Source: Cyanobacteriota bacterium SRBZ.bins.94.201705
Lineage (GTDB): Bacteria > Cyanobacteriota > Cyanobacteriia > Cyanobacteriales > Cyanobacteriaceae
DNA length: 32,438 nt
Direction: 5' to 3'
Assembly (NCBI GenBank): GCA_030549855.1
Contig: JAUQQP010000028.1
Span: 1-32,438, forward strand
Under the pieces are notes generated by a model. It did no database searches. It had not been told where the DNA came from and worked only from the letters and a program-made list of their open reading frames with translations. Shown here piece by piece: positions 2,835-23,100 of this stretch (its first letter is position 1; the number at the start of each line of letters is the position of its first letter). Position numbers and translations under genes: made by a program.

Positions 2835-4145
2835 GTGAGTGCCAACACCATGTCACCCAGTATATACTCTGGCGCAGGAGATGAACAGTATCTCTACGAA
2901 CACCTGCTGGAGTGTGTGAAAACCCAGTCGCCTGAGCAGGTGTTGGAAAGATTCAGACATCTGTTCATTATAGCAAAGAGATACGACAATCAAAGGGTGT
3001 TGGAGTCGCTGGCGAGGATAATCAGTAAAAAACAGGCAGTGGAATACTTCCCCTCCATCTTAAACCGTTGTTGCTACATTTTGATCAACCGTTGGCAAAT
3101 ACAACCACAAACTCAGGGGTTTGTAGTAGAATTGGTGGAAATGTTCGAGAAGCTGCCGGCGGGGGTGGGTGTTGGTGGTGGCTATGCCCGCACCTACTCT
3201 GGCAGAATGATTCAGCTAGTAAGGCATTTTCTGACCACTGACTATTATAAGCAACTTAAAAGGCTGGCCACTATCATTAGCGAGAGTTTGGAAAGGAAAA
3301 ACAACAGCCTAAGCCAGAAAGAAGAGACTGTAGGCAAACTGATTATCCGTTACCCCTATCTTTATGATCATTGTCTCCTAGGACCTGACAGTGATAAAGA
3401 ACAACAACAAACAGTATACCAGCTGAGACGGGAAATGGAAAGGAAGTTTGAAACCCAATTGTCGAAATTTGTGATACAGCAGGTAAGATTGGCAAGGGGG
3501 GAAACAGAGAGGGGGAAAGTAGTATCTGTGGTAACCAATCCCACTCTTCTCAGTGACAAGGATTTGAATAAGAGTTTAAGACATTTTGTGGGCCCAGTGG
3601 AGAGGGGTTATTCCTACCAACAGTTGTCTAGCAGTTTCCTGAGTTATACCAGTGATGTGCGCAACTACCAGATGTTTAAAGACAGCCTGTACGAGTACAT
3701 TGTACAGTCTATTGACGAGAAATACGGCAGACACAGTTTTAACAGGAAACTATACGAGAGGATACAACAGATATATCCCCAACATAATAACGCCAAGCCA
3801 GATGAGTTTCTGAAAATGCGCACTTACTCTCAACTGTTCAACTATCTGGTAGTAGAGAGTCCCCAAAATCCGAATCATCTGGTATTTATGGATATGATCA
3901 GTAATATGGGCACCACTAAGACTATTGGCTTGCTGCTGAAGATAGTCTTATTGTGTAGCAAGGTGAAACCCTATTTGGAAAAACGCTTCTCGATTCTGTT
4001 TAATCATTATGAGTCTTTCACGAGGGAGGGTGCGGCATGGCTAATAAGAAGCCTAGAGAAACTCAATGTTGCTTTTACTGTCCATTTTGGCAACCTAGAC
4101 ATTTCTTTTCTCCGACGGGTTTATGCTGGGGGGTTTTGTGGTTGA
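2835..4145 (+). CDS. conserved cyanobacterial protein of unknown function
   Basis: A 436-residue soluble protein without signal peptide or membrane segment. It is largely alpha-helical in appearance and rich in Arg, Tyr and Gln. I do not recognise a named domain, although the overall sequence looks like a conserved cyanobacterial hypothetical. The region of 200-235 (QLRREMERKFETQLSKFVIQ) looks coiled-coil-like. A Gly/Val-rich loop sits near 112-118. The GTG at 2835 is used here; an ATG at 2850 (starting MSPSIYSGAGDEQYLYEH) is an equally good start. The gene diverges from murF and is followed by the asparaginase gene on the same strand after a 99-bp gap. Codon use and length indicate a real gene; the function is unknown. 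Confidence 0.75.
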   Translation: MSANTMSPSIYSGAGDEQYLYEHLLECVKTQSPEQVLERFRHLFIIAKRYDNQRVLESLARIISKKQAVEYFPSILNRCCYILINRWQIQPQTQGFVVELVEMFEKLPAGVGVGGGYARTYSGRMIQLVRHFLTTDYYKQLKRLATIISESLERKNNSLSQKEETVGKLIIRYPYLYDHCLLGPDSDKEQQQTVYQLRREMERKFETQLSKFVIQQVRLARGETERGKVVSVVTNPTLLSDKDLNKSLRHFVGPVERGYSYQQLSSSFLSYTSDVRNYQMFKDSLYEYIVQSIDEKYGRHSFNRKLYERIQQIYPQHNNAKPDEFLKMRTYSQLFNYLVVESPQNPNHLVFMDMISNMGTTKTIGLLLKIVLLCSKVKPYLEKRFSILFNHYESFTREGAAWLIRSLEKLNVAFTVHFGNLDISFLRRVYAGGFCG

Positions 4146-5198: not shown

Positions 5199-5293
5199 GT
5201 TACTTGCTGCCGCCTCCCCCTTCCTCCCTGCCCTATTGCTTCTTGTTCCTCTTTATCTCTCTCTCACTATTGATTATTAATATCATTTAAATT

Positions 5294-5400
5294 ATGCCCA
5301 GCCCCGCCCCTGGCAGTCACGTCTCCTGCCGTCCCCCTATTACCTCTATTGTAGCGCGCCGCCGTTTTTTTGTCAAGGGCACATTTGGCTCAAGTGTCTT
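5294..5400 (+). repeat. dispersed repeat copy 1 (hairpin-containing)
   Basis: Copy 1 of a diverged ~90-bp repeat whose second copy is at 6764-6870. The shared core is GCCC, then CCCTGGCAGTC, then CCTGCCG, a TA-rich stretch with TAGC, GCCG and TGTCAAGGG, in the same order and near-equal spacing. GGCAG and CTGCC can pair as a stem. The homology seems to extend left through the pyrimidine-rich tract. Copy 1 lies about 95 bp after the asparaginase stop. Confidence 0.6.
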
Positions 5401-5405: not shown

Positions 5406-6763
5406 TCCTAAAAATACTGGAGTCAACAACCCCGCACTAGTCTTTACTATCTCTTAAATTGACTGCCAATGTTTACTCCCCTTTTGGATAATAAAAATTC
5501 TGCCTTCAGTAGGTGTACTAATCCTTATATAAATAGCTAGAATTTAAACTGTTAAACATTATCTTTAACCACACCAGAAAATATACAGTAAAGGCCATAA
5601 ATTTATTGTTTATATACAAGGCGAAATTATAGGGGAAATACGGACAGTACGGATAGATTAGGAAAATTATTACATACCTGAAGTGCCCTCTATATCTGTA
5701 GATAGCTTCCTCTGTAGCCTCAGTAAAACCAAGGGCAAAACGAAAATTTGTCCAGAGGAAAAATAAAATGCCCTATGTCTGTTTGTGAATGGCAGAAGCA
5801 ATTACTGTTTGAATAAAAACAGTAGGGCAAAAGGCATACTTGAATAATAATACTTTACTAATGAAAGTTGGTAGAATACGGGGAATTAACTGGAAGGCAG
5901 ATTGGGAAACAAATAAGGTTTTTAAGGAAAGGAAAAAATGTTTCTGAGAGGAAAAAGTTAAGACAAAACTTTAAGGCAACAGGCTATCACTAACCTTAGG
6001 CTACCTGGAGGGAATAATTATGTAGTACCAGGGGAAACAGGAGGTTAAATTCTTTTTTCTGTCAGATTACCAGAGGAATTATTTCTTTGGAATGTTATCA
6101 CAATATGCATGTATAAACGGGGTGGGTTACCAATTCAGTTTCTGGGGAGGGTATGTTTAGTCTCTGTAATTTCAAGAATTGGATTGACTGATAGGCGACA
6201 CCAGAGTTTAAGTATCTCATGGCAGATGCCATATAATAGGAATTAGGCTGACGTTGTTGAAATTGAGGTGATTGTGAGTGGAGGTATTTTTGTAATTCTA
6301 CCAAAGAAAAACCATAGGCAAAGTAAAGTTTTTTTGACGGGGTTTAAGTCTACTTATTCCCCCACCAAGATAACACTCCTATGATTTATGCTCTTATTTT
6401 ACCTCATTTATGAACATGGTACCCAAACCTCAGTTGTCTCGGTTTATTTCTAAATTCCCTCACTACCACTCATGCTGCCGTCTTTTGCCGGATGCGAAAA
6501 ATCCTTTTCTCTTGACTTACCATCCTTATTCCCTTTCTTCCTACACCCCCTTTCTTCCCACTTCTCGACTTTATTGTCATTATTGTCATTTTTTGTCCCT
6601 CTGTTCCCTCTCTTTTTGATTATTTTTCCTACTAAAGCCCCCTAGCCACAATCCTGTTATTTTTTCTCTTCGCTTTTCAAATTCTCCCCCCTGTCTCCTT
6701 GTTTATTGCTACTATTATCTTTTACTACCCCAATCTTTATGATTATCTCTCTTATTAAGAAAA

Positions 6764-6870
6764 CGCCCAGGCACAGCCCTGGCAGTCCTTTCGCCTGCCG
6801 CCCACATCTATCCCTTATTCTAGCAAGCAAATCGGCCGTATGTCAAGGGTTCGTCTGGATTTGTCTTTAC
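6764..6870 (+). repeat. dispersed repeat copy 2 (hairpin-containing)
   Basis: Copy 2 of the repeat at 5294-5400, in direct orientation about 1.47 kb away. It keeps CCCTGGCAGTC, GCCTGCCG, CTAGCA, GGCCG and TGTCAAGGG. It ends about 85 bp before the ATG at 6957, so it could lie in that gene's leader or promoter. Confidence 0.6.
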
Positions 6871-6956: not shown

Positions 6957-9266
6957 ATGTCTTCCCCACCGGTAGATAAACCCTACAAAAGTAGGTTGTT
7001 TAACTTTCTGAATAGTCAGTATATAAGGATTCACAGTGGGGTAAACAGAAAACTAAGGCAATGGGGTATAGCAGTGAGGGGGGGATTAGAAATTGTATTG
7101 TTTCCCTTCCTCCGGTTGTGGGAGATTATAACTAAGACTGGCAATAAAAGTTTTGCCTCAGCAAAGAGAAAAAGTGGGGGTTTTTTGCCTGAAGCCGCCT
7201 GTGACAAAATAATCCGGCAGGTGACAGAGAAAATGGTAAGGGAAAAGGATTTACCAGTATTGCTTATTCATGAGTTTCAGGGGTTGGCTTGTCGTTTGCA
7301 AGATGGGTGTATTGTGGGGGTGATGGCAAACAACCAGGTAAGGGAGATAATACCCAGGAATAGACAGCAAGAGATTAGTGAGTTGATTGAGGCAGTTTTA
7401 GCAAGTAATGAAGTGAGACTGGGAGATAATCCGATAATAGTATGGTTGGATAGGTTTATTTCTGCTGTGGAGGGTTATATCTTTTCCCCCCAGCCTCCAC
7501 AAGGGGATGCCATAATGACAGGCTGCCGTGATAATGATAGCATGGAAATGGGAAGAGCTTATGTAAACGGCAAGGAAGGCCATTCCCATCCTACTAGCTA
7601 TTTTCATGATAGCCAAGATGAGCCTCGGGTAGGGCATTATAACTCCGACTGGCTGCCTTCTCGCGTTAAAACAGTGATTCTGGCGGCTATTAATTATTTT
7701 TTTGGCAAGAAAAAGAAGAGTCTTTCCCCCTCCAGCCTATCTCCAGCCTCCACTGGTAGCAATGTTGAAAACAATCCTCCGGCGGATATTAGAAATAGTT
7801 TTACCCCCCCCTCAGGAAAAACCAATAATGCTGTGGGTATATCCTTGTTGTCTTTCGAGGCTGATAGTAGAATTCACAAACTCGCAAGGAAGATTTTTTC
7901 CCCTCTTTTGCCGGCGAGAAATAATAACAATTCTTCTCCCAGCAGGCAAAAAAGGGAAGGGGAGGAGGTGGTTTCAAATAGTGGGAAATACAATTGGGTT
8001 AAAATTAGACTTTTAATTGAGGCGGCTATTGATTATTTCTTTGGCGGGAAAAATCCTCCTGTCTTCCCCAGGGATGCCACTGCCGCTTCTGACACCATTT
8101 TATCTACTCCAACTGATGCCAGTGTCTTTCCCGAAACCATTTCATCCACCCCCACAAATACCACTATAACCCCTAATACCATCTCCTCTACCCCTGTAAA
8201 AGCCAATGTCTCTGACAACAGTATCCCACAGGCATCCACTGGTGGCAGCGTTACATCTAATAGTATGGCTTCCATTCCTACTGATGCTAGCCTTATTCCC
8301 AAGACTATTCTATTGGGTAAAAGTATTAAGTCTTATGTTGAGACAATTAAGACTAAAATAACAAGTTTGGGTGGCGGTGTTTTTTCTAGACTTTTGTTGC
8401 CAGGGGAAAATCAAAATCAAATCAAGGAGGGGAGTATAAAAACAACGGGAAATCAGTCTCCTGTCGGCAAAAATGAGTTGGAGGAATCTGTCTGGGAGAA
8501 AGACAACCCTTTCCAGCTGAAACTGCTTATTATGGCAGCCATTGAGTATTTTTTTGGCAAGAATTCACCTGTTTGGAGAAAAAATAGTTTAGCCAATACC
8601 ACCCCTCCCTTGCCTCCTCTTAGTCATATTAGTCATCTCCAACGAGACAACCCCATCTCCCTGTATCCGGATGAATCTGTATGTCTCCCAAGAAGTGACG
8701 AATCCCCAGTAGAGGGGGATGAATTTGCTTTTCTCTCCTTCCCCCCTACTGGAGGTAGTAGTAATTCGATGGTAGGGAGTAACAGTAGAGGTGACATGAA
8801 TGCCTCTGTATCTGTGGAGGATGAATTTGCTTGTCTTTCCTTTCCCTCCACTAGGAGTAGTAGTAATCCCATGGTAGAAAATAGTGGTAGAGGTGACATT
8901 ACCACCTCTTTTTGGGAATCTGCTTGTCTTTCCTCTCCCACGGGTAATGGTGAGTCTACTAATATTCAAGGTGATAGTAGTATAAAACAGGCGGTTGTAG
9001 AAAAAAATCAAAAGTCGGGGATAAGAGACGACTATTACTTTGCAGACAGGGAAATAGAAGTCGACATAGTGGAAACAAGGTATGAAAAACACTTGTTACA
9101 AGTAATCCTAGAAAAATTAGATGAATTGATGCTATGGCTGGAGGAGTTGATAATAGGGGTTGTAAGGTGTGTGGGAGAATGGTTGGCAAGAGAATGGAGT
9201 AGAGAGAGGGGGAAGATAAAACAACAGCAAGAAGACAAGAAGGAAACAGGGAAAAGACAAGACTGA
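6957..9266 (+). CDS. large repeat-rich low-complexity protein, conserved N- and C-terminal parts, function unknown
   Basis: A 769-residue protein from the ATG at 6957 (an AAGGA-like site lies just upstream; a TTG 48 bp upstream is less likely). The first ~180 residues look folded and conserved, with a hydrophobic stretch near 38-56 (AVRGGLEIVLFPFLRLW) that could bind membrane. Then come three spaced copies of a helix motif, hydrophobic-AAIxYFFGKK, at about 247, 360 and 531. They are separated by Ser/Thr/Pro/Asn-rich linkers. One linker is a tandem 14-residue repeat (379-448), and another contains three ~31-34-residue units starting DEFA (about 588-680). The last ~60 residues are helical and amphipathic (EKLDELMLWLEELI). 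The architecture resembles cyanobacterial hypothetical proteins with a YFFG motif and a LMLWLEE tail. Its own 3' half is duplicated and decayed downstream. Confidence 0.75.
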   Translation: MSSPPVDKPYKSRLFNFLNSQYIRIHSGVNRKLRQWGIAVRGGLEIVLFPFLRLWEIITKTGNKSFASAKRKSGGFLPEAACDKIIRQVTEKMVREKDLPVLLIHEFQGLACRLQDGCIVGVMANNQVREIIPRNRQQEISELIEAVLASNEVRLGDNPIIVWLDRFISAVEGYIFSPQPPQGDAIMTGCRDNDSMEMGRAYVNGKEGHSHPTSYFHDSQDEPRVGHYNSDWLPSRVKTVILAAINYFFGKKKKSLSPSSLSPASTGSNVENNPPADIRNSFTPPSGKTNNAVGISLLSFEADSRIHKLARKIFSPLLPARNNNNSSPSRQKREGEEVVSNSGKYNWVKIRLLIEAAIDYFFGGKNPPVFPRDATAASDTILSTPTDASVFPETISSTPTNTTITPNTISSTPVKANVSDNSIPQASTGGSVTSNSMASIPTDASLIPKTILLGKSIKSYVETIKTKITSLGGGVFSRLLLPGENQNQIKEGSIKTTGNQSPVGKNELEESVWEKDNPFQLKLLIMAAIEYFFGKNSPVWRKNSLANTTPPLPPLSHISHLQRDNPISLYPDESVCLPRSDESPVEGDEFAFLSFPPTGGSSNSMVGSNSRGDMNASVSVEDEFACLSFPSTRSSSNPMVENSGRGDITTSFWESACLSSPTGNGESTNIQGDSSIKQAVVEKNQKSGIRDDYYFADREIEVDIVETRYEKHLLQVILEKLDELMLWLEELIIGVVRCVGEWLAREWSRERGKIKQQQEDKKETGKRQD
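8091..8300 (+). repeat. in-frame 42-bp minisatellite (five 14-residue units)
   Basis: Exactly 210 bp encode five consecutive 14-residue units: DTILSTPTDASVFP, ETISSTPTNTTITP, NTISSTPVKANVSD, NSIPQASTGGSVTS, NSMASIPTDASLIP. The first three are close and the fourth is the most diverged. The period keeps the reading frame. It sits in the linker between the second and third YFFG modules. Confidence 0.8.
8718..8960 (+). repeat. in-frame tandem repeat, units of 102 and 93 bp
   Basis: Three consecutive units begin at GATGAATTTGC (8718), GATGAATTTGC (8820) and GGGAATCTGCTTGTC (8914). Each encodes (DEF)A(F/C)LSFPxT, a Ser/Asn-rich run and a GRGD-like end. Spacings of 102 and 93 bp are multiples of three, so the frame is kept. 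The same three-unit layout recurs out of frame downstream at 9499, 9597 and 9675. Confidence 0.7.
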
Positions 9267-9490
9267 GACAACATGGGGATAGGGGGAAAAAGGGATAGGC
9301 AGCCATTGAGGATTATTGTGGCAACTCAGCCGCCTGGAAAAGTAAAAATTGTCTAGCAAATACTAACCCCCTGTTTCCGCCTCACAGCGTTGTATCACTT
9401 ATAGCCATAGCAGTTATATCCGAGACGCTGTCTTTTGGCGGGTGGGTGTAGCAGTGGGGAGTCTATGGCAGAAAAGAATCTCTAACAAGA

Positions 9491-10020
9491 GGGGGAATGA
9501 ATTAGCTTGTCTTTCTCTCCCTCAGTGGAGATAGTAGTAATTCTGGGGGAGGGGATAATAGTAGGAGTGACATTCATTCTACCACCTCTGTGGGGTGAGT
9601 TGGCCTGTCTTTTCTCCCCCCCACAGTGGTAACGTCGTTGTAGAAAACAATTCCAGAGGCAGCATGACTGTGGGGAATCCGTTTGTTTTTCTCACTCTGT
9701 GGCAAGTGATGGGTCTACTAGTATTCAAAGTGGTGGTAGAATGGAACAAGCATGAGAGACAATCAAAAATCAGAAATAAAAAGACGACCATTGCTTTGCC
9801 AATAGAGGAATAGGAGTAGACACAGTGGAAATAGGATATAAAAACAGTTGTTGTAAATAATCCTGGAGTTAGACGGATTGATGCTATATAGGAAGAAGAG
9901 TTGATAATAGGGATTGGGGTTAATAGGAATTAGGGTATGGGTGGAGAAAAGGAAAACTAAACAACAGCAGAGTTATGGGGGGGTAAACAGAAGGTAAACA
10001 AAGAAAACAGTAAAAAAAAC
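9491..10020 (+). pseudogene. decayed tandem duplicate of the 3' part of the 6957-9266 gene
   Basis: This stretch matches about 8718-9260 of the upstream gene in the same order. It has three GAAT..GCTTGTCTTTC-type units, GGGTCTACTAGTATTCAA (gene: GAGTCTACTAATATTCAA), CAATCAAAAATCAGAAATAA, TAGACACAGTGGAAATAGG, GATTGATGCTATATAGGAAG, GTTGATAATAGGG and AAACAACAGCAG. The offset is about 780 bp. Unit spacings have become 98 and 78 bp, and stops and shifts break every frame, so it cannot encode the protein. 9267-9490, between gene and copy, holds nothing I recognise. Confidence 0.75.
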
Positions 10021-10023
10021 AGG

Positions 10024-10767
10024 ATGGGCAAAAGGGACAACAGTAGTATAATAGCCAGTGGGAATCTAGACTACCGGAATAGCAAAAAACCTATGGAAGA
10101 TTATTCCTCCTGTTGTTTGATTTCTCCCCCCATAGAATCCATCCACCTGGAAAAGACAGTGAGATTGGGGATAATGGCGTCGGGGAATGGGAGTAATTTT
10201 GAGGCAATTGCCAAGGCGATTGCAGAGGGTTTATTGAATGCTAAAATCGAGTTATTGATATATAACAACCCAGGTGCGAAGGTAAAAGAAAGGGCAGACA
10301 AATACGGGGTAGAATCATTATTGTTAAATCACAGGGAGTTTGCCAGCAGAGAAGCCTTGGATGAAGCAATAGTAGACTGTTTCAAGAGAAAAGGGGTAGA
10401 GTTAGTAGTGATGGCGGGATGGATGCGGATTGTCACCAAGGTGTTACTGGAAGCCTTCCCAGAAAGGGTAATAAATATACATCCCAGTCTTTTGCCTAGT
10501 TTCCGGGGGATGAATGCAGTGAAACAGGCGTTAGAAGCGGGAGTAAAGATTACTGGCTGTACTGTACATATTGCTACCCTAGAAGTAGACAATGGTCCCA
10601 TTCTAGTCCAGGCTGCAGTACCCATTCTACCAAATGACACGCCAGAGACTCTTCATCAGAGAATTCAAAATCAGGAACATCGTATCATAATTCAGGGTAT
10701 TGCCCTAGCAGTCTTAAGAAGCAGGGGGAAAGATGCAACAAACCCGGTTGAGTCTATTAGCCAGTAG
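10024..10767 (+). CDS. purN: phosphoribosylglycinamide formyltransferase
   Basis: The enzyme transfers a formyl group from 10-formyl-THF to GAR, step three of de novo purine synthesis, in the cytosol. The Rossmann-like fold starts at VRLGIMASGNGSNFEAIA (46-63). The catalytic set is present: Asn151 and His153 in INIHPSLLPSFRG, and Asp189 in LEVDNGPIL. The conserved VVMAGWMRI precedes it (128-136). The enzymatic core runs from residue ~46 to ~230. The 45-residue N-terminal extension is poorly conserved in appearance. The ATG at 10024 lies at the very end of the decayed duplicate and has AACAGG immediately before it, too close for a good ribosome site. The true start may be the ATG at 10093 (MEDYSS...). 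The 3' end overlaps the next gene by 35 bp. Confidence 0.93.
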   Translation: MGKRDNSSIIASGNLDYRNSKKPMEDYSSCCLISPPIESIHLEKTVRLGIMASGNGSNFEAIAKAIAEGLLNAKIELLIYNNPGAKVKERADKYGVESLLLNHREFASREALDEAIVDCFKRKGVELVVMAGWMRIVTKVLLEAFPERVINIHPSLLPSFRGMNAVKQALEAGVKITGCTVHIATLEVDNGPILVQAAVPILPNDTPETLHQRIQNQEHRIIIQGIALAVLRSRGKDATNPVESISQ

Positions 10768-11497: not shown

Positions 11498-11899
11498 AGA
11501 TTTATATTTCCAAAAGTTAATTTGTTTCTCTTTCCCATTGTGACACAAATCCGCCTTCGGATGGGAGGAATCTCAAAATGAGATATGTCAGCAGCCAATG
11601 GCGGCAGGTAGAGGTAAGAGGTTGTTACCCGAAGGTGAATAGTATTTTTCAGCCAGAGGTTTAATTCTATTTGTCACTCTTTAGAGAAACATTTATCAAC
11701 CTCAAGTCATGTTGCTACTAGACTTTAGCTAGGGATAGAAAATTTCTGCCACCTTTTTGCAACAATTCTATAACCCTTCCTCAACTGGTATCATTGTCTT
11801 CTGCCAACAGGAAACGACAGTGATTAAGGGAGACTTGCATAAAAAATACTGACATTAGCATTGAAAATACTCGACTGTAGGACAATTTTATCCCCACCC
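11498..11899. other. upstream region of the SSB-like gene, no gene seen
   Basis: No gene is supportable here. A perfect 5-bp hairpin ATCCG/CGGAT with a 4-base loop lies at 11551-11564, followed by mixed-composition DNA without the repeat words that dominate from about 11900 onward. The promoter of the SSB-like gene must lie here but I cannot identify it confidently. Confidence 0.4.
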
Positions 11900-12902
11900 A
11901 TTTGATAGAGAAGTGTTTTCAGCCTGACTATCAGCAAGATGCCTATTAGACGGATGTTTTTAGCATTTTACTCAAGGGAGTGTCCAGTGTGGAAGTATTA
12001 TTGGTGTGACTTCAATGGGTGTGACTTGAATGGGAGGTTTCTAGGCGGATGACTGTTGTCAGGAAGAATTAAATGAGGCGTATATTTGGCAGACTGCCGT
12101 TGTTGGTGTCAATAGAGTGGGGGGTGGCTAGCATAATCAGTAGGGGATTCTTATTAGCCTAAGAGGAAGGCATTTATACTAGTAGGAGACTTTACCACTG
12201 AGTATTCATACAAGTATTTTTTACGCCATTAGGTTAGGGTAGATGGGGGGTGGTTGTAAGTTTAGTGGCTGGGTGGGATGTGTATTATTGGGATGATTTT
12301 GCTGGGGGAAATTCCCAGAAGAAAGGCATTAGTGGGATTACAACTGGTGGCAGTTAGCGGGATTGTTATCATGACTCTCCTGGAGAGGATGGTTTGATTA
12401 TAAGGGTATACCTGGTAAACAACTACTGTGGGATTGGTTTTATGGGGGGTATCGAGTAAACGACTGTAGTTTAAATAACTAGGGGGTATATCTAGAAGAC
12501 GACTATTGGCAAGGATAATTTTACTAGCAAGGGAATCTAGTAGAATAATCGTCAGTATGATTTTCCTGGGGAAATTCCATCAGATTGTTTTTACTTTCAC
12601 TCAACTGGGGAGACTGTTTATTGTTGGTTTATTTGTTGGTGTGGTTTTACTGGAGGAGGTATCAATAAAGCCACTGTTGTCGGTTTCACTCAGGTGTCTG
12701 GAGGGGAGTTGTCGTGGGTGTCATATGACTAAAAGAAATGTTTATTTTTGGCATGATTTTACTTGAGTAGGAGGCTACTGTTGTTGGTTTTATCCCCCTA
12801 CCTCTGTCAGGCTATTGTTGTAGACGTAAGTAGGGGATAGTTTTACTGGAGGAAGTGTCTGGGAGACAGGTGGGGGAGTAGCCGCCAGACAGATATACAT
12901 TG

Positions 12903-13410
12903 CCGGATTGACTTTACTAAAATAGACAGGCATTGTTAGGATTACTTGGGGTATTGTTGCTGTGACTAGACTGGAGATAATAGTATTTGGGGGAATACAT
13001 GACTGTAGTCAATTGTTGTCAGGGTTGTTTTGCGGTAGACTGTCTAGTAGAAGGGTGTTTTTGGCATAACTTTACTGGGGAAGTGTCTAGGAAACTAGCA
13101 TTGTTAGGGTTATTTACTAGAGTGTATTTGGTAGACGAATATTATAAGCCTTGGCTGAAGGGAGTGTCTGGCAGGGGGGTATTGTTGGCATGACTAGACG
13201 AGGAGAATGTGTGGAAGAAGAAAGTTGTGGGTGGATAGTATTGAAAGTTTTGTCACCATGACTTTTCCAGGGAAGATGGTTGACAGGTGGCCGTCGTTGG
13301 TATGATTATCTAGTGGACGACTATTGCTAGGGTGACTTGAATAGGAGTATCTGGGAGTAGGGGAGAGTGTCTGGCATGCAAGGATAATTGTCGGGTTGAC
13401 TTGGGAGGTA
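12903..13410 (+). repeat. higher-order repeat copy A inside the array
   Basis: Aligns in order with copy B at 14170-14545. Shared landmarks are TTGACTTTACT..ATAGACAGG, GGGGGAATACATG (B: GGGGGATACATG), GTATTGTTGGCATGACTAGA (B: GTGTTGTTAGCGTGACTAGA), GACGACTATTG..AGGGTGAC and TATGTCTGGCATGCA-like (13370s). Copy A is longer by insertions. Confidence 0.6.
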
Positions 13411-14169
13411 CTCAGGGGCAAAATGTTGTTAGTAAAAGGCAGAAGGAGGAGTTTCTAACAGATAAGTATCGTTTGGCGTTAATCTGCTGGAGAGATGCCT
13501 AGCGGGATACTCTTATTAGTTTCACTCTCTGCTGAGATTGTCTGCTAAAAGACTATTATCAGCCAGAAGCTAGAAATGGGATTGGCTTGAGGGTGGTGGC
13601 GTGGCGTTGGAAGGCGACTCTACTGGAAAACAGATGTAGTGGATGTTGTCAGACACAGTTGGCTGGGGGTAGATATGGCAAATGATTGGTGTTGGCATGT
13701 GGGGGTGGAAGGCAACCGTTATCAGCATGAGTCGGGTAAAGGTAAATCCTTGTGGTGACTTTACTGGAAAAGGTATGTATGACACTGCCGTTTTTGGCGT
13801 GACTTTGCCGGAGAGGTAGTCTGGCTTTATTAAGGGAAATAAACGGCTGACACCATTGTTGGAATGTATAGAGGAGTGTTTGGCAAAAGTGATTTGTAAG
13901 TATGACTAGACTGAAGAATTATTTAGCCTGCCACTGTCACCAGCCAGGAGTCAAAAGTAGGATGACTTAGCGGGAGGGGGTAAACTGGATTTGGCGAGGG
14001 GGAAACGGGTGACGAGTATTGTTAGCTTGATTTTAGCGGGGTAAAAAAAGGCAACTGTTGTTGGGATAACTCTCCTACTGTCAAAAGATTGTTTTTGGTG
14101 TCAACCTCGAGGAGTAGTTTTGATGGAGAGAGTATCTAGTAGACGGGTTTTGACTGCTAAAAAGACATT

Positions 14170-14545
14170 GCAGGGTTGACTTTACTGGGATAGACAGGTG
14201 TTGTTGGGGTGACTTGTGGCTGGGAATAGTTTGACTATGGGGGGATACATGGTATACAAGTATTGTTAGATTAGCTTTATAGAAAGACATTTGATACTGT
14301 AGGCTTGAGGGGGAATGTCTAGCCGCTAAGTGTTGTTAGCGTGACTAGAGGAGAAAGTGGGGTAGAAGGATGTTGTTGATTTTCCCTTATACGGGTGTCA
14401 GTCTACCGCCGGCTGATAACTGTCGTTATTATGACTCCACAGAGAGGATTTTCAAAAGACGACTATTGTAAGGGTGACACTGGGGAAGTTTTTGGGAGAC
14501 AACTGAAGGGTATGTCTGGCATGCAGAGATTGTCGATTAGACTTC
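14170..14545 (+). repeat. higher-order repeat copy B inside the array
   Basis: Collinear with copy A, about 1.1-1.27 kb downstream of it. A fainter third match lies near 15780-16020 (ATACA..CAAGTATTGTT, then AATGTCTAGCAG..AAG). This indicates segment duplication on top of the short units. Confidence 0.55.
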
Positions 14546-14611
14546 ACCAGGGAAGATGAAGGTGGTAGACTGTTGCTAACTACATGTCGGGTGGCAGGGG
14601 GATGTCGTTAG

Positions 14612-14690
14612 CTAGCCAGAAGGCGACTGGGATGAGGCTGGGAGGTGTCTAGTATATAACTGGGGGAGGTAAGTAGAAGAGTTTTGTTAG
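14612..14690 (+). repeat. 75-bp direct repeat within the array, copy 1 (copy 2 at 16396-16470)
   Basis: The two copies share AGCC(A/G)GAAGG, ATGAGGCT, GTGTCTAGTATA(T/C)AACTG, GGAGGTAA and TAGA(A/C)GAG in the same order, about 1.78 kb apart. They are among the best-preserved long-range matches in the array, which suggests a comparatively recent copying event. Confidence 0.65.
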
Positions 14691-17600
14691 GATGAATCTG
14701 CTAGGAGTAGACACATGGCAAATGAGTATTGTTGTAGCGATGAGGGAAGAGTCTAGGAGGCAACTATTGTCATTATAAGAGTGAGGGCAAATTTTTATTG
14801 TGACTTTTTCAAAAGAGGTGTATATCAGACAAACATATTTGGTTTCACCCTGCTGACGGGGAAAGTCTCATTAGAAATAGACGACAAGTATTCTTGTCAG
14901 GGTTATCCCATTTATCCCATGGGAAGGTATTTAGGAAACAAGTTTTATTAGGATGACTTTCCTGGAGGAAGTATCTACTATTGGATGAGTATTATGGGGG
15001 GTAGTCTGACAGGAGGCTATTTGGCAGACGGGTATTGTTGTTATACCAGAAGACAGCCCCATGGTCCATATACAATTGCTTTAAAAAAAACTACACTGGA
15101 AATTAGTCTTCCTAGACTGGGGGAAGTGTTTTACAAGCAACTGTTGTGGTTAGCCGAATGGAGGCGGTGGTTGTGAGTGAGAGTTGGCGGTGTCTATCCA
15201 TGGAGAAGGTGTTGTTAGCATAACCCAGCCAAGTCTAGTATGCCATCACTGTTGGGGGGATTTTGCCGGGTTTAGGGGGGAAAAGTCCATCGGCTTGTTA
15301 TGGTATTAGAGTAACATATTGGAGTAACCCGGCTTGGTGATGGGAGATAAACAAGTGTCATTAGCCTTCCTGTAGGAAGATAGCCCAACTTTACTGGAAT
15401 GGACACATGTTAACAGATATAATTGGTAGGCACATGTTTTTAAAAGTACTGTGATAGAGGCATTAATGCGTTTAGAAGACAAACGTTGTGTTGTTAGCCT
15501 AAATAGACTGAGATGCCGGGGGGAAGGTGTGGTTTGTATGAATTCAAGGGAGAATGTTGGTCGTTGTTGGTGTAAATTTATTGGTAGGGTGGGTATCTTT
15601 AGGATAGGGTGATTTAGTTTTAATACTTAAATGTTACTAGGCTGGGTTTAAGAAAATACTGAGGGGAGTGTTAGTGGCATACAGGAGAAGTTTGTCGCCA
15701 GTGTGACTAGACTGGTATGCCACTAAAGGGAAGCTATAGTGGAGTTTTCTTGGTGTAACCCGGAAGACGGAGGGATGATTAGACTGAGGCATACACACAA
15801 GTATTGTTGGTATTGTTAGACTGACTACACTAAAAAGCCTCATGAGGCATATACAGGTATTTTCGGCCTGACTATACTAGAAAATAACCTCATCAGACAG
15901 AGAAAATGTCTAGCAGTAAGATGTCTTTAGTGTAACACTGAGAGGGAGATTTAGGCAGCAGTAGTTATTGACGTGACTCAGATAAGGATGTCTATCTGGT
16001 AGACTGGTGTTGTTAGTACAACTTTCTCCCAAAGAGACGATAGAGGGGGATAGCGAGGCAGGCGAGGGATGTATCCGCCAACAAAATCATTCCACCAGAG
16101 AGGGTTTACAATACGAGTATACCCAGTATAAGCTAGCCGGGGTTATTTAGCGGGTATTATTAAAACGAGTTGACATAGAGGGGGGATAGGGGACAATTGT
16201 TTACTGTTGGCATTATCCCAAAAAAAGAAATATTAGACAAGTTTTGTTGGCGTGGCTTGGGGGGATGGGGAGACTATTGTTGTTAGATTTGGTTGGGGTA
16301 AAAGACAACTGAAGAGGGTTTCTAGTATACAAGGGTTGTTGGCTTGATTTCTCTAGAGGATATCTAGCAGACAATTGTAGTGAGTTTTTCTCCAAGTAGC
16401 CGGAAGGTGGAATGAGGCTAGAAAGTGTCTAGTATACAACTGAAGGAGGTAACTAGACGAGTGTTAGCTGTTGGGGGAAGACTTGGAAAAAATGTGGCAG
16501 ACGACTGTTTCCAACCTGCTGAAGGGGAGGCAGCATGAGTCGACTCAATGTGGGGGAGATAATTGATATGGGATAAAGATAGCCACAGGTATCGCTAGGT
16601 TTGGGTTTGACAGAGGTTGGGAGACTATTATCTGTCATTGTTACTCCTGGATAGACTAAGGGGGTTGTGGAGGAGATATTTTTGGTTTCAGCTAACTGGG
16701 GAATATGGTACAGACTCGTTATTTTAACTCAGCGGGAGACGTTTGGAAGGAAAGTAGTGGTATATGACGAGACAGAGGAATACACAAGCCATTGTTATTC
16801 GGATTACACTGTCGACTAGGAGGAATGGGTGGCAGACGGGTGAGGGAGGATTTTACGCCGAGAGTATTCAACTGTTGTCTATGGGAAAGAATACCAAAAG
16901 AAGTGGTGTTATTAACAGTAAGAGGATATTTAGCAGGCAACTGTTGTTGGTGTGGAAAAGCGGGAGAATATCTATCCAGTAGGCATCAATTCTCAGTATC
17001 GCCTTGCTTTAAATAGGAAGGGGGAAAAGACAGTTGTTGAGGTAACTGTGGAGAAAAAAAGTTGGGGGTGAGGTGGGTAGAGGGAGTTTGTTGACAGGGA
17101 TGACTCCACCCCAATGTCTAGCAGACAATTGTTGTTGGTGATTTTGTTTTGGGGAGTATATGATGGCAGGAGATAGTTGTGGGTTTCACCTGGGGAAAGC
17201 GATTATTTATTCCCGGGGTGATTCAACTATAGAGGTATTTACTATAAGGGTATATATATACAAATTTGCTGGGGGGTATTTAATAGGCTGGCATTGTTGA
17301 GACTGGATAGGCTGGTATTGTTAAGGCTAGTTGGGTTTGGGGGATGTATACTGAACAATTGTTGAGGCAACTAGAGTGGGGGGGAGGCAGGTTACTGTTG
17401 AGTATTGTCAGTATAAGGGGGAGGGTAAATGCCTGTTTAGTAGAAGAGTGTTGTTAGTCTAAAGGGGGGTATTTGTCTGGCAGAAAAGTGTTATTGGTGT
17501 TAATTTCCAGGGGGTATACTAGAGGAGATAACTATTGGGTAGACAATGTCAGGGAAGGCAATAGTTGACTGTTGTGGTGATGAGGGATTGGCAAAAAGAG

Positions 17601-17967
17601 GATGAATAATGGGAGTGGAAAGATTCTGGCAGACAAGGGAATTTGGTGTCATGCCGGCAGGCGGGGGTTGGTTGTAACCTTTATAAAATTTTAAAAAAAA
17701 AAACTAGGGCGAAGGAATACTCCTGTTTGTAGAGATTTTTGATGTCGCCATTTTCATTTAGTAAACAACTGTTGCCGCTTTTGCCAGGTTTAGCTGGCAT
17801 TTTGGGGGGTGGTAGGTTTTATTCTACCAAAAAAGGTGGTGTCATTTTTGAGGGATGAGTGGTGTTGCTGTCATTCAACCGAGGAGGATTGTCATTGTTA
17901 CTTTACTGGAGGAGGATATTAACTAATAATAGGGATTAGTGGCGTGGTCTATAATATTGGTGAAACA

Positions 17968-20972: not shown

Positions 20973-21006
20973 AAAAGGTGTGGGAGTAGAAAAGGTGTGG
21001 GAGTAG
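20973..21006 (+). repeat. perfect 17-bp tandem duplication
   Basis: AAAAGGTGTGGGAGTAG occurs twice in succession without a mismatch (20973-20989, 20990-21006). Its perfection shows that it is younger than the degenerate repeats around it. Confidence 0.9.
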
Positions 21007-21043
21007 AAAAAAGACTGGGAAGGAAAACCAATCCCATAGGAAT

Positions 21044-21510
21044 GATAAAGACTTTTTCTCAGAAGACAGTTTATATCCCAACAATCATCATCCCTCCTCC
21101 ACACATAGCAATGATAATAACCTTCCCCCAGAAGATAGTCTATATCGCAACAACCGTCATCTTTTGGCTAACACGCGGGAGTGATAATACCTTTGCCTCA
21201 GAAGACAATTCATATTCTGACAACCATAATCCTCCCGCCAATACAAGGGAATGATAATAACTTTCCCCCAGAAAACAGTTTATACAACCATAATCTTCCT
21301 ACCAATACAAGGGAGTGATAATAACCTTCCTCCAGAAGATAGTCTATATCGCAACAACCGTCATCTTTTGGCCAACACACGGGAGTGATAATAACTTTCC
21401 CCAGAAGACAGTTTATATCCTAACAACCATTATCCTTCTATACATAGTAATGACAATGACTTTTCTGCAGAAGACAGCTTATATCCTGAAAACCCCCATC
21501 TTCACCTCTA
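21044..21510 (+). repeat. ~70-bp tandem repeat, seven units
   Basis: Units start at GATAA.. (21044), 21113, 21183, 21253, 21317, 21387 and 21452, with spacings 69, 70, 70, 64, 70 and 65. Each reads GATAATAACTTTCCCCAGAA, then a GACAGT-TATAT block, then CAACCATNATC and a block ending GGGA or AGTA. Units 2 and 5 are especially close (both contain AGATAGTCTATATCGCAACA and GTCATCTTTTGGC), as are units 4 and 5 at their junction (ACCAATACAAGGGA), hinting at copying of multi-unit blocks. Confidence 0.85.
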
Positions 21511-21616
21511 AATTCCCAGCCGGGGATGGTAAGGGAATGGTGAGGAGTCTTAACCGCAGACGAATGATAATCATTCTACAATAATATCAGGTAACCGGGA
21601 AAAGTAGCAAAACACA

Positions 21617-21703
21617 GACGAGTAATGGCAGTTGTTGTCTTAAATTCCCTGTGGAGAAAGTCAACAGATGTAGACGAATGACAATCATTATCTAATATTG
21701 ACT
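21617..21703 (+). repeat. ~90-bp direct repeat copy 1 (copy 2 at 21804-21893)
   Basis: Both copies share AGACGAGTAAT, GTTGTCTTAAATT, CCTGTGG, AGTCA, ACGAAT, AATCATT and TAATA in order, 187 bp apart. Each contains one Fur-box-like palindrome near its right end. Copy 2 differs by a G-run expansion and point changes. Confidence 0.75.
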
Positions 21704-21803
21704 AAAAGTCATCCCGGATTCCCGCTGTGGGGGGAGGTTGATGGCAGGCGAAGGATAATATCCCCCAATAATGGCGGGTGACTGGGAGGGGGTAGCTAAG
21801 GAT

Positions 21804-21893
21804 AGACGAGTAATAGTAGTGGTTGTCTTAAATTTCCTGTGGGGGGGGAGTCAGCGGCTGTATACGAATAATAATCATTCTTTAATAGTAACT
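21804..21893 (+). repeat. ~90-bp direct repeat copy 2
   Basis: Second copy of the 21617-21703 element. It carries a run of eight to nine G after CCTGTG and the palindrome variant AATAATAATCATT. Confidence 0.75.
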
Positions 21894-21980: not shown

Positions 21981-22640
21981 CTAGTAGGAAGACAGTGAAA
22001 GGGTGGCAATACCCACTGTTTTTAGTTTTCCCCTGGTTAATACGGCTTTAGCCTCCCTGAAGGTGGTGCCGGTGGTGTAAATATCGTCCACAATGAGAAT
22101 GGAGGTGTTTGGTTTGATTTTCTTTTTGTAGTCTTTAGCCAACTGGAAGGCTTGCCGGATGTTTTCCTGTCTTTCCGTGGGATTGAGGTTAAACATTGCC
22201 TTTGTATTTTTAACCCGTAAAAGGAGACGGGGTTGGAGGGTATAACCGGTTATTTTACAAAAGCCTCGGGCTACCAATTCCGCCTGATTATAGCCTCTAG
22301 TTTTTAATTTTTGCTCATGGATGGGGATAGGTACAACTATTAGTTGTTTGTATTGTCGCCGATGGTTATAGGCTATCCATTTTTCTCCCAACCATTGTCC
22401 AAACAATTCTCCCAATTCCTTCTTTCCATTGTACTTTAAAAGGGCTATACATCGTCTCAAATGGCCATCATATTTCCCCCAGGAGAAGAGAAAAAATCCC
22501 TCCTCCAACCAGAGGAAATTATCCGTCAGTTGACAACAGGCCAGTTTTTGTTGACAATAATAACAGAGCCCATTTTCTGCTACTGTTCCACACACTGGAC
22601 AATTTGGTTTTAGGAATAAGTCTAGGATAAATTTAAGCAT
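21981..22640 (-). CDS. ComF family protein (phosphoribosyltransferase-like)
   Basis: A 219-residue protein from the ATG at 22640 (MLKFILDLFLKPNCPVCG); an upstream in-frame start at 22757 would add 39 atypical residues inside the divergent gene. The N-terminal zinc finger has CPVC (14-17) and CYYC (26-29). The PRTase domain has VPIPIHEQKLKTRGYNQ (103-119) and the PRPP loop ILIVDDIYTTGTT (181-193). ComF proteins are needed for DNA uptake in competent bacteria and interact with the ssDNA-handling machinery; in cyanobacteria a role in natural transformation is plausible but unproven here. Its start codon is only 10 bp from that of the divergent DUF3531 gene, so each promoter must lie in the other's coding region or both leaders are nearly absent. 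Confidence 0.88.
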   Translation of the reverse strand: MLKFILDLFLKPNCPVCGTVAENGLCYYCQQKLACCQLTDNFLWLEEGFFLFSWGKYDGHLRRCIALLKYNGKKELGELFGQWLGEKWIAYNHRRQYKQLIVVPIPIHEQKLKTRGYNQAELVARGFCKITGYTLQPRLLLRVKNTKAMFNLNPTERQENIRQAFQLAKDYKKKIKPNTSILIVDDIYTTGTTFREAKAVLTRGKLKTVGIATLSLSSY

Positions 22641-22650
22641 TGTAGGCCAA

Positions 22651-23100
22651 ATGGAAGTTAAATTTAGGGAGTTTAATCCTTTTGATTTGTGGATTTGGTT
22701 AGAATTTGAAAATGCCCCCTCTGACATGGAGAAACAATATGTAGAGGAGTTATTCAACTCCTGGTTTTACATAGGTAAACTGGGGGGTTTTAATGCCGAA
22801 AATTTGCAAATCCAGGAAAGGGGAGTAGACATTAGCTATCTGGAGTATGATGAAGAATATGCGGACAATGCTATGATGGCACCTATGCATAACATGGGAG
22901 AATTCGAGTATTTAGGCAATTGGGCGAGATGTTGGTTTGATTTGGGCACTAGTGATTTAATTGCTTTAGACATTCTTATTAATTCTCTGCGGGAATTATC
23001 AAAAGACTATGTAGCCATAAAACAGGTGATTTTCGGAGGAGAGAATGAAGACTGGAAGGTAGACAGGAAAAACGAATATGCTGAGTTTGATTCTTATTAA
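22651..23100 (+). CDS. DUF3531 family protein
   Basis: A 149-residue soluble acidic protein of the DUF3531 (PF12049) family, found in cyanobacteria and plastids and of unknown function. Typical features are MEVKFREFNPFDLWIWLEF at the start, SDMEKQYVEELFNSWFYIGKLGGFN in the middle (24-48), MHNMGEFEYLGNWARCWFDLGTSDLIALDILINSL (79-114) and a C-terminal acidic end. No signal peptide or membrane segment is present. It diverges from the comF-like gene with a 10-bp gap and converges with the small membrane protein gene with a 7-bp gap. Confidence 0.85.
   Translation: MEVKFREFNPFDLWIWLEFENAPSDMEKQYVEELFNSWFYIGKLGGFNAENLQIQERGVDISYLEYDEEYADNAMMAPMHNMGEFEYLGNWARCWFDLGTSDLIALDILINSLRELSKDYVAIKQVIFGGENEDWKVDRKNEYAEFDSY

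Follow-up and report, generated by a model that had tools for sequence, protein, structure and literature searches.

The spacer in front of purN in the analyzed genome consists for the most part of a second, decayed copy of the end of the neighboring gene. The locus lies in a window of 32,438 nucleotides, which is the whole stretch of DNA analyzed here. The window is contig 25 of the genome, whose purN relatives mark it as cyanobacterial; among the best 80 of 572 purN loci from named genomes, the highest identity was 69% (Unicellular cyanobacterium SU3). Very probably, a single tandem duplication of the last third of this gene, probably after the split from G001, the sole genome of the same genus among the 60 relatives searched, produced a copy that was dead from birth and has since decayed, with the DNA upstream of purN left unchanged. 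The features of the locus are listed in Table 1.

Table 1. Features of the purN locus (positions in the window)
Feature	Position	Strand	Description
Parent gene	6957..9266	+	769 aa; cyanobacterial protein; ATG 6957 aligns with the G001 start
Copy 1	8534..9297	+	Last 733 nt of the gene, including the stop codon, and 31 nt of 3' flank
102-nt coding repeat in copy 1	8721..8939	+	Three units, starting at 8721, 8823, and 8916
Copy 2	9298..10037	+	Decayed non-coding head-to-tail duplicate; most of the spacer before purN
102-nt repeat in copy 2	9499..9620	+	Units starting at 9499 and 9597; weak third unit near 9676 (by eye in the alignment)
TATAAT, possible purN -10 box	10047..10052	+	Conserved in G001 (L046 9254); just outside copy 2
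purN (phosphoribosylglycinamide formyltransferase)	10093..10767	+	TIGR00639 2e-71; PF00551; start shared with G001

Duplicated Unit and Significance of the Similarity

The two copies abut on the same strand, head to tail, beside the parent gene, and are colinear over 740 nt with an overall identity of about 76%. A strict local alignment matched positions 8711-9162 with 9488-9916, where 322 of the 423 aligned bases are identical (score 220); for 300 dinucleotide shuffles, the mean score was 24 and the maximum 34. With softer gap costs, the alignment extended to 8534-9295 and 9298-10037 (527/690 aligned bases identical), and its score of 471 compares with a maximum of 108 in 300 shuffles. The best score between copy 1 and 126 real spacer pieces of the same genome, both strands counted, was 42.

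The region is purine-rich (GC skew 0.34) and holds short repeats, as would be expected if the similarity reflected chance or shared low complexity. The strict score is nevertheless far above those of both the shuffles and the real spacer pieces, and the similarity is colinear throughout, so shared low complexity was rejected; the probability of such an origin is close to nil. Thus, the pairwise alignment proposed as a check by an earlier reading of the sequence alone (hereafter, the sequence-only reading) confirms the repeated segment reported there, at an identity beyond that expected from low complexity.

That reading placed the segments at 8718-9260 and 9491-10020; the repetition holds, but about 185 nt were missed at the left of each. 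It also described the duplicated part as the 3' half of the gene, whereas the unit comprises only the final 32% of the gene at 6957-9266. The unit is devoid of a start codon and carries its own stop, the TGA of the parent gene at 9264-9266. The three-unit repeat was rightly assigned to both segments, the third unit in copy 2 being weak and recognized by eye. The edges of the duplicated unit do not match the boundaries of the 102-nt repeat, which sits inside the unit, and, by eye, retain no clear microhomology.

Parent Gene

No family match was found for the parent protein in Pfam or NCBIfam. Relatives of the gene (E ≤ 0.001) were found in 35 of the 60 relative genomes searched. Motifs were read by eye in the window gene, its G001 counterpart, and six other relatives. 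The AAIxYFFG motif occurs three times in the parent protein, which also has a conserved C-terminal tail. Motifs of the AAIxYFF type number three in the window gene and in G001 and two in each of the six relatives from outside the genus, all of which also have the conserved tail. The presence of these motifs outside the genus indicates that the motif repeats are older than the genus. With 769 aa, the parent protein is longer than the open frames of the 12 family members of other genera with a match (493-582 aa). A second copy of the parent gene was not found elsewhere in the genome (2.87 Mb, 51 contigs).

The parent gene has a dN/dS of 0.40 relative to G001, compared with 0.02-0.08 for five neighbor genes; purN and ssb were left out of this comparison. 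Judging from these ratios, it is under weak constraint, and its change is unusually rapid for the neighborhood.

Empty Site in the Related Genome

Gene order around the locus is the same in G001 (contig C67, L046): rfbC, murF, a 436-aa ORF, asparaginase, the relative of the parent gene, purN, a 110-aa ORF, and ssb. The labels rfbC, murF, and ssb, as well as pheT below, are our assumptions, based on the look of the translations. In G001, 183 nt lie between the end of the parent-gene relative (L046 9115) and the start of purN (9299), whereas 826 nt separate the parent-gene stop from the equivalent purN codon (10093) in the window. Similarity between the two genomes resumes at L046 9252, corresponding to window position 10045.

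No second copy was detectable in the G001 spacer (L046 9116-9251). It scored 21 with copy 1 and 22 with copy 2, and 164 and 126 of 300 shuffles, respectively, did at least as well; with the final 100 nt of copy 2, the score was 22 (58/300 shuffles). The best score of this spacer, 29, was obtained with the tail of G001's own gene (8/300). By sequence comparison, the junction in G001 is therefore an empty site that lacks copy 2. The sequence-only reading had suggested looking for the junction in relatives; G001 has the same gene order without the copy. The evidence for the empty site comes from G001, the one relative in which the junction is present. The 12-15 kb fetched around the gene in six other family members did not reveal purN, and these genomes are uninformative on the junction.

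A further difference from G001 was observed upstream. A short intergenic element that has 27 other hits in the genome occurs at window positions 5240-5379 and 6750-6849, on either side of about 1.4 kb that is absent from G001. The distance from asparaginase to the next gene is 1758 nt in the window and 353 nt in G001. The segment between the element copies may have been lost by G001 or gained here through recombination between the copies.

Decay of the Second Copy

The three forward frames of copy 2 contain 16, 15, and 15 stops. In the three-way alignment, which is poor in the repeats, copy 1 and copy 2 are separated by 15 gap events, 12 of which are not multiples of three, whereas none of the 7 events separating copy 1 from G001 is of this type; each set includes the unaligned end as one event. 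The frames of the second segment are thus broken, as the sequence-only reading had stated.

With G001 as the outgroup, 46 private changes were counted in copy 2 and 22 in copy 1 (P = 0.004). A separate alignment of the tail gave 36 and 16, respectively (P = 0.006). The full three-way MAFFT alignment was set aside for rates, because it misplaces the repeats and the copies are only 62.5% identical in it; its counts (copy 1, 68; copy 2, 114; G001, 96) point in the same direction. The rates rest mainly on the pairwise local alignments and the tail alignment. Assuming that G001 is the outgroup, copy 2 changes about twice as fast as copy 1. Such a ratio is about what would be expected of a neutral copy beside a parent with a dN/dS of 0.40. 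Together with the empty site and the frame-breaking gaps, the faster change of copy 2 bears out the history of tandem duplication followed by decay that the sequence-only reading had put forward.

Private changes of copy 2 at codon positions 1-3 number 12, 16, and 18. The comparison of the two copies gave a pN/pS of 0.54, much as did that of copy 1 with G001 (0.50; Fisher P = 0.88). Relaxed codon-position bias, also proposed as a check, therefore did not separate the copies, but this comparison has little power because the parent gene itself is weakly constrained.

Copy 2 might instead have been kept for a function, as a promoter spacer or insulator for purN, as a non-coding RNA, or as a gene-conversion reservoir for the 3' end of the parent. 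This would be in line with the persistence of 740 nt although about one quarter of the aligned bases differ from copy 1, and with the tail of copy 2, which is 79% similar to copy 1 versus 76% overall. However, this more similar tail corresponds to the part of the parent under the strongest constraint. Furthermore, copy 2 changes faster than copy 1, G001 manages without it, and a search of the window with Rfam at gathering scores gave no match. Retention for a function is highly improbable in view of these data, and copy 2 is presumably without function.

Age of the Duplication

On the G001 branch, 52 private changes were found, compared with 22 on the copy 1 branch (P = 0.0005); in the tail alignment, the numbers were 32 and 16 (P = 0.02). 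The two species change at similar rates. Private residues number 2-6 in each species for purN (four outgroups), 5-12 for the N-terminus of the parent protein (four outgroups), and 2-6 for its C-terminus (six outgroups). Given these similar rates, a shorter copy 1 branch is what a duplication later than the split would produce. With the age of the split taken as 1, the counts date the duplication to approximately 0.6-0.8 (0.59 and 0.67; 0.83 with the poor alignment).

Alternatively, the duplication may predate the split. G001 would then have lost all of its second copy, recombination between the copies being one possible route. In the tree of the tail, the copies are not grouped, and copy 2 is weakly joined with G001 (51/67); in 22 columns, copy 2 agrees with G001 and copy 1 differs. 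Segmental duplications are, moreover, commonly lost by recombination, according to a study of worm lines (PMC3857721). But copy 1 and its G001 orthologue, if separated after the duplication, would have equal branches, since the species rates are similar, and the observed branches are 22:52 and 16:32. This older date also requires an extra event, and no remnant of a copy was detected in the G001 spacer. It is considered unlikely, and the duplication probably took place after the split from G001.

Proposed Mechanism

The anatomy of the locus is best explained by a single head-to-tail duplication of approximately 764 bp, which took in the last third of the gene with its stop and the next 31 nt of 3' flank. 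Such an event would convert an arrangement X-U-Y into X-U-U-Y, with the new junction at 9297/9298, downstream of the gene. The first U would end the protein as before, so that the length of the parent gene would be kept. The second U, having neither a start codon nor an upstream frame, would have been untranslated from birth. Copy 2 would then have accrued substitutions (about twice as many as copy 1), frame-breaking gaps, and stops, becoming most of the purN spacer. With the stop codon inside the unit, the gene probably never grew longer, and copy 2 was probably non-functional from the outset. The expansion of a repeat-bearing gene assumed by the sequence-only reading fits neither this position of the stop nor the unit edges, which ignore the 102-nt repeat.

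A different course of events would be tandem duplication of the whole gene; the second copy would have been coding for a time and would later have lost its 5' two thirds by deletion. The differences between the copies are indeed concentrated at synonymous sites (pS 0.39, pN 0.21), as if both had once been constrained, but the same excess could result from transition bias together with constraint acting only on copy 1. The 5' two thirds were not found elsewhere in the genome, and two events would be needed where one explains the present anatomy. Duplication of the whole gene is thus quite unlikely, and duplication of the gene end alone is preferred.

purN Start and Leader

The ATG at 10024, which is the first for purN in the mechanical ORF list, lies upstream of the point where similarity with G001 begins and overlaps the first hexamer of a promoter-like site at 10025. 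The match at 10025 takes in the TATAAT box; three such matches were found, compared with 3.5 expected in shuffles. The first listed ATG in G001 (9278) has no ATG opposite in the window, and the ATG shared by the two genomes is the one at 10093. The automatic purN start at 10024 is therefore probably wrong, and the locus serves as a warning in this respect.

According to the sequence-only reading, the start codon of purN lies at the edge of the copy, and the duplication may have altered the purN leader. The start common with G001 is 10093 rather than 10024, and an altered leader does not agree with the positions of the TATAAT box and the shared start, both of which are outside copy 2. After the change to X-U-U-Y, the original DNA would still adjoin purN, so the leader would be unchanged; the 740 nt before purN would represent its original context. 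The leader appears to have been left in place by the event.

Comparison with Known Systems

Partial tandem duplications occur in bacteria. As in other partial tandem gene duplications that leave a truncated pseudogene, a head-to-tail copy of part of a gene lies by an intact parent, with broken frames and faster change. The present case is the same in kind, here dated by the empty site in the sister species, and copy 2 has survived, although duplications of this type are easily lost. Duplicated segments that contain incomplete genes are also described, in the study mentioned above, for mutation-accumulation lines of worms (PMC3857721).

In Rickettsia, the breakdown of bacterial genes into fragments has been established (PMC2374718). 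The variable segments described in that paper likewise consist of gene-derived DNA broken by indels and stops into short ORFs. There, mostly whole genes decay in place in reduced genomes, whereas at the present locus an additional partial copy is decaying next to an intact parent. Trichodesmium, another cyanobacterium with long spacers, is 40% non-coding according to a published account (PMC4649490), compared with 19% outside ORFs of at least 100 aa in 381 kb here; the comparison concerns these proportions.

No description of the locus formed by this gene and purN was found among the titles listed in literature searches, which does not exclude one in print. Copy 2 is a case of ordinary pseudogene formation, of a known kind, caught while still readable. 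It opens no new kind of mechanism. Its value is that of a clear bacterial spacer derived from a partial gene copy, with the parent adjacent and an empty site in the sister species, and copy 2 could be a calibration point for neutral decay in the genus.

Spacers Elsewhere in the Genome

Spacers were surveyed in the window and 20 stretches, 381,380 bases in total. The stretches, which represent 12% of the genome, were taken from the start of contigs 1-20 (20 kb or the entire contig), which gives contig ends too much weight. In this sample, 81% is covered by ORFs of at least 100 aa and 19% is outside them; 43 spacers are at least 400 nt long, five of them in the window.

By blastn against their own 4-kb flanks, 9 of the 43 spacers had a hit. 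A long colinear copy of a flanking gene was found in only one, the purN spacer with copy 2. The remaining hits were arrays, short intergenic elements, short matches, and a pair of tRNA-Lys genes. Internal similarity was found in 11 of the 43 spacers, one of these having only a palindrome. Flanking ORFs compared with the spacers by tblastn gave hits in another count of 11/43, in seven of which the only match was an ORF overlapping the spacer; the other four spacers are located at window 21255, L057 5341, L062 16371, and L070 3143. This tblastn test missed copy 2 and is thus blind to copies as decayed as this one, and gene copies older than copy 2 would escape the survey.

In this sample, the growth of arrays is at least as visible a source of spacers as gene copies. 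The sequence-only reading held that the locus shows how non-coding spacer arises in this genome. With one gene copy versus 11 spacers with internal repeats, this wider claim is not borne out by the sample, although it is unsupported rather than disproved. Small tandem duplications of 3' ends could in principle be a steady source of spacers in the genus, copy 2 being the youngest in view and the others decayed past recognition; we regard this as very unlikely.

Several other spacers contain recognizable structures. In L070, positions 3245-3500 (spacer 3143-4122), between two tRNA-Lys genes, show 47-49% protein-level similarity to the nearby ORF 534-2099 and are a probable remnant of a relative of this ORF. 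Tandem arrays were found in spacers of L058 at 13569-14339 and 16569-16983. They are approximately 83% and 95% alike, with GC skews of -0.36 and -0.41 and main lags of 36 and 87, and may represent an early stage of the degenerate arrays seen in other spacers.

In the window, the region between ssb and pheT (11549-17943) extends over 6.4 kb without an ORF of 100 aa and has a GC skew of 0.40 throughout. Degenerate direct repeats are scattered through it (e.g., 14613-14685 and 16397-16465, 79%), and it shows a weak autocorrelation, with lags of 41-44 and 15. By blastn, this long spacer (11560-17900) had no other copy in the genome. A tandem array with units of about 70 and 134 nt, 72-84% alike, occupies positions 20973-21893, before the gene at 21981-22757.

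Finally, a recurrent intergenic element was observed in L062 (16573-16680, 17292-17400, and 18006-18073) and L066 (9000-9060 and 9755-9815). By eye, it has a promoter-like head with TTGACA and, further on, GATACTGG. This element possibly represents a family of small RNAs or promoters.
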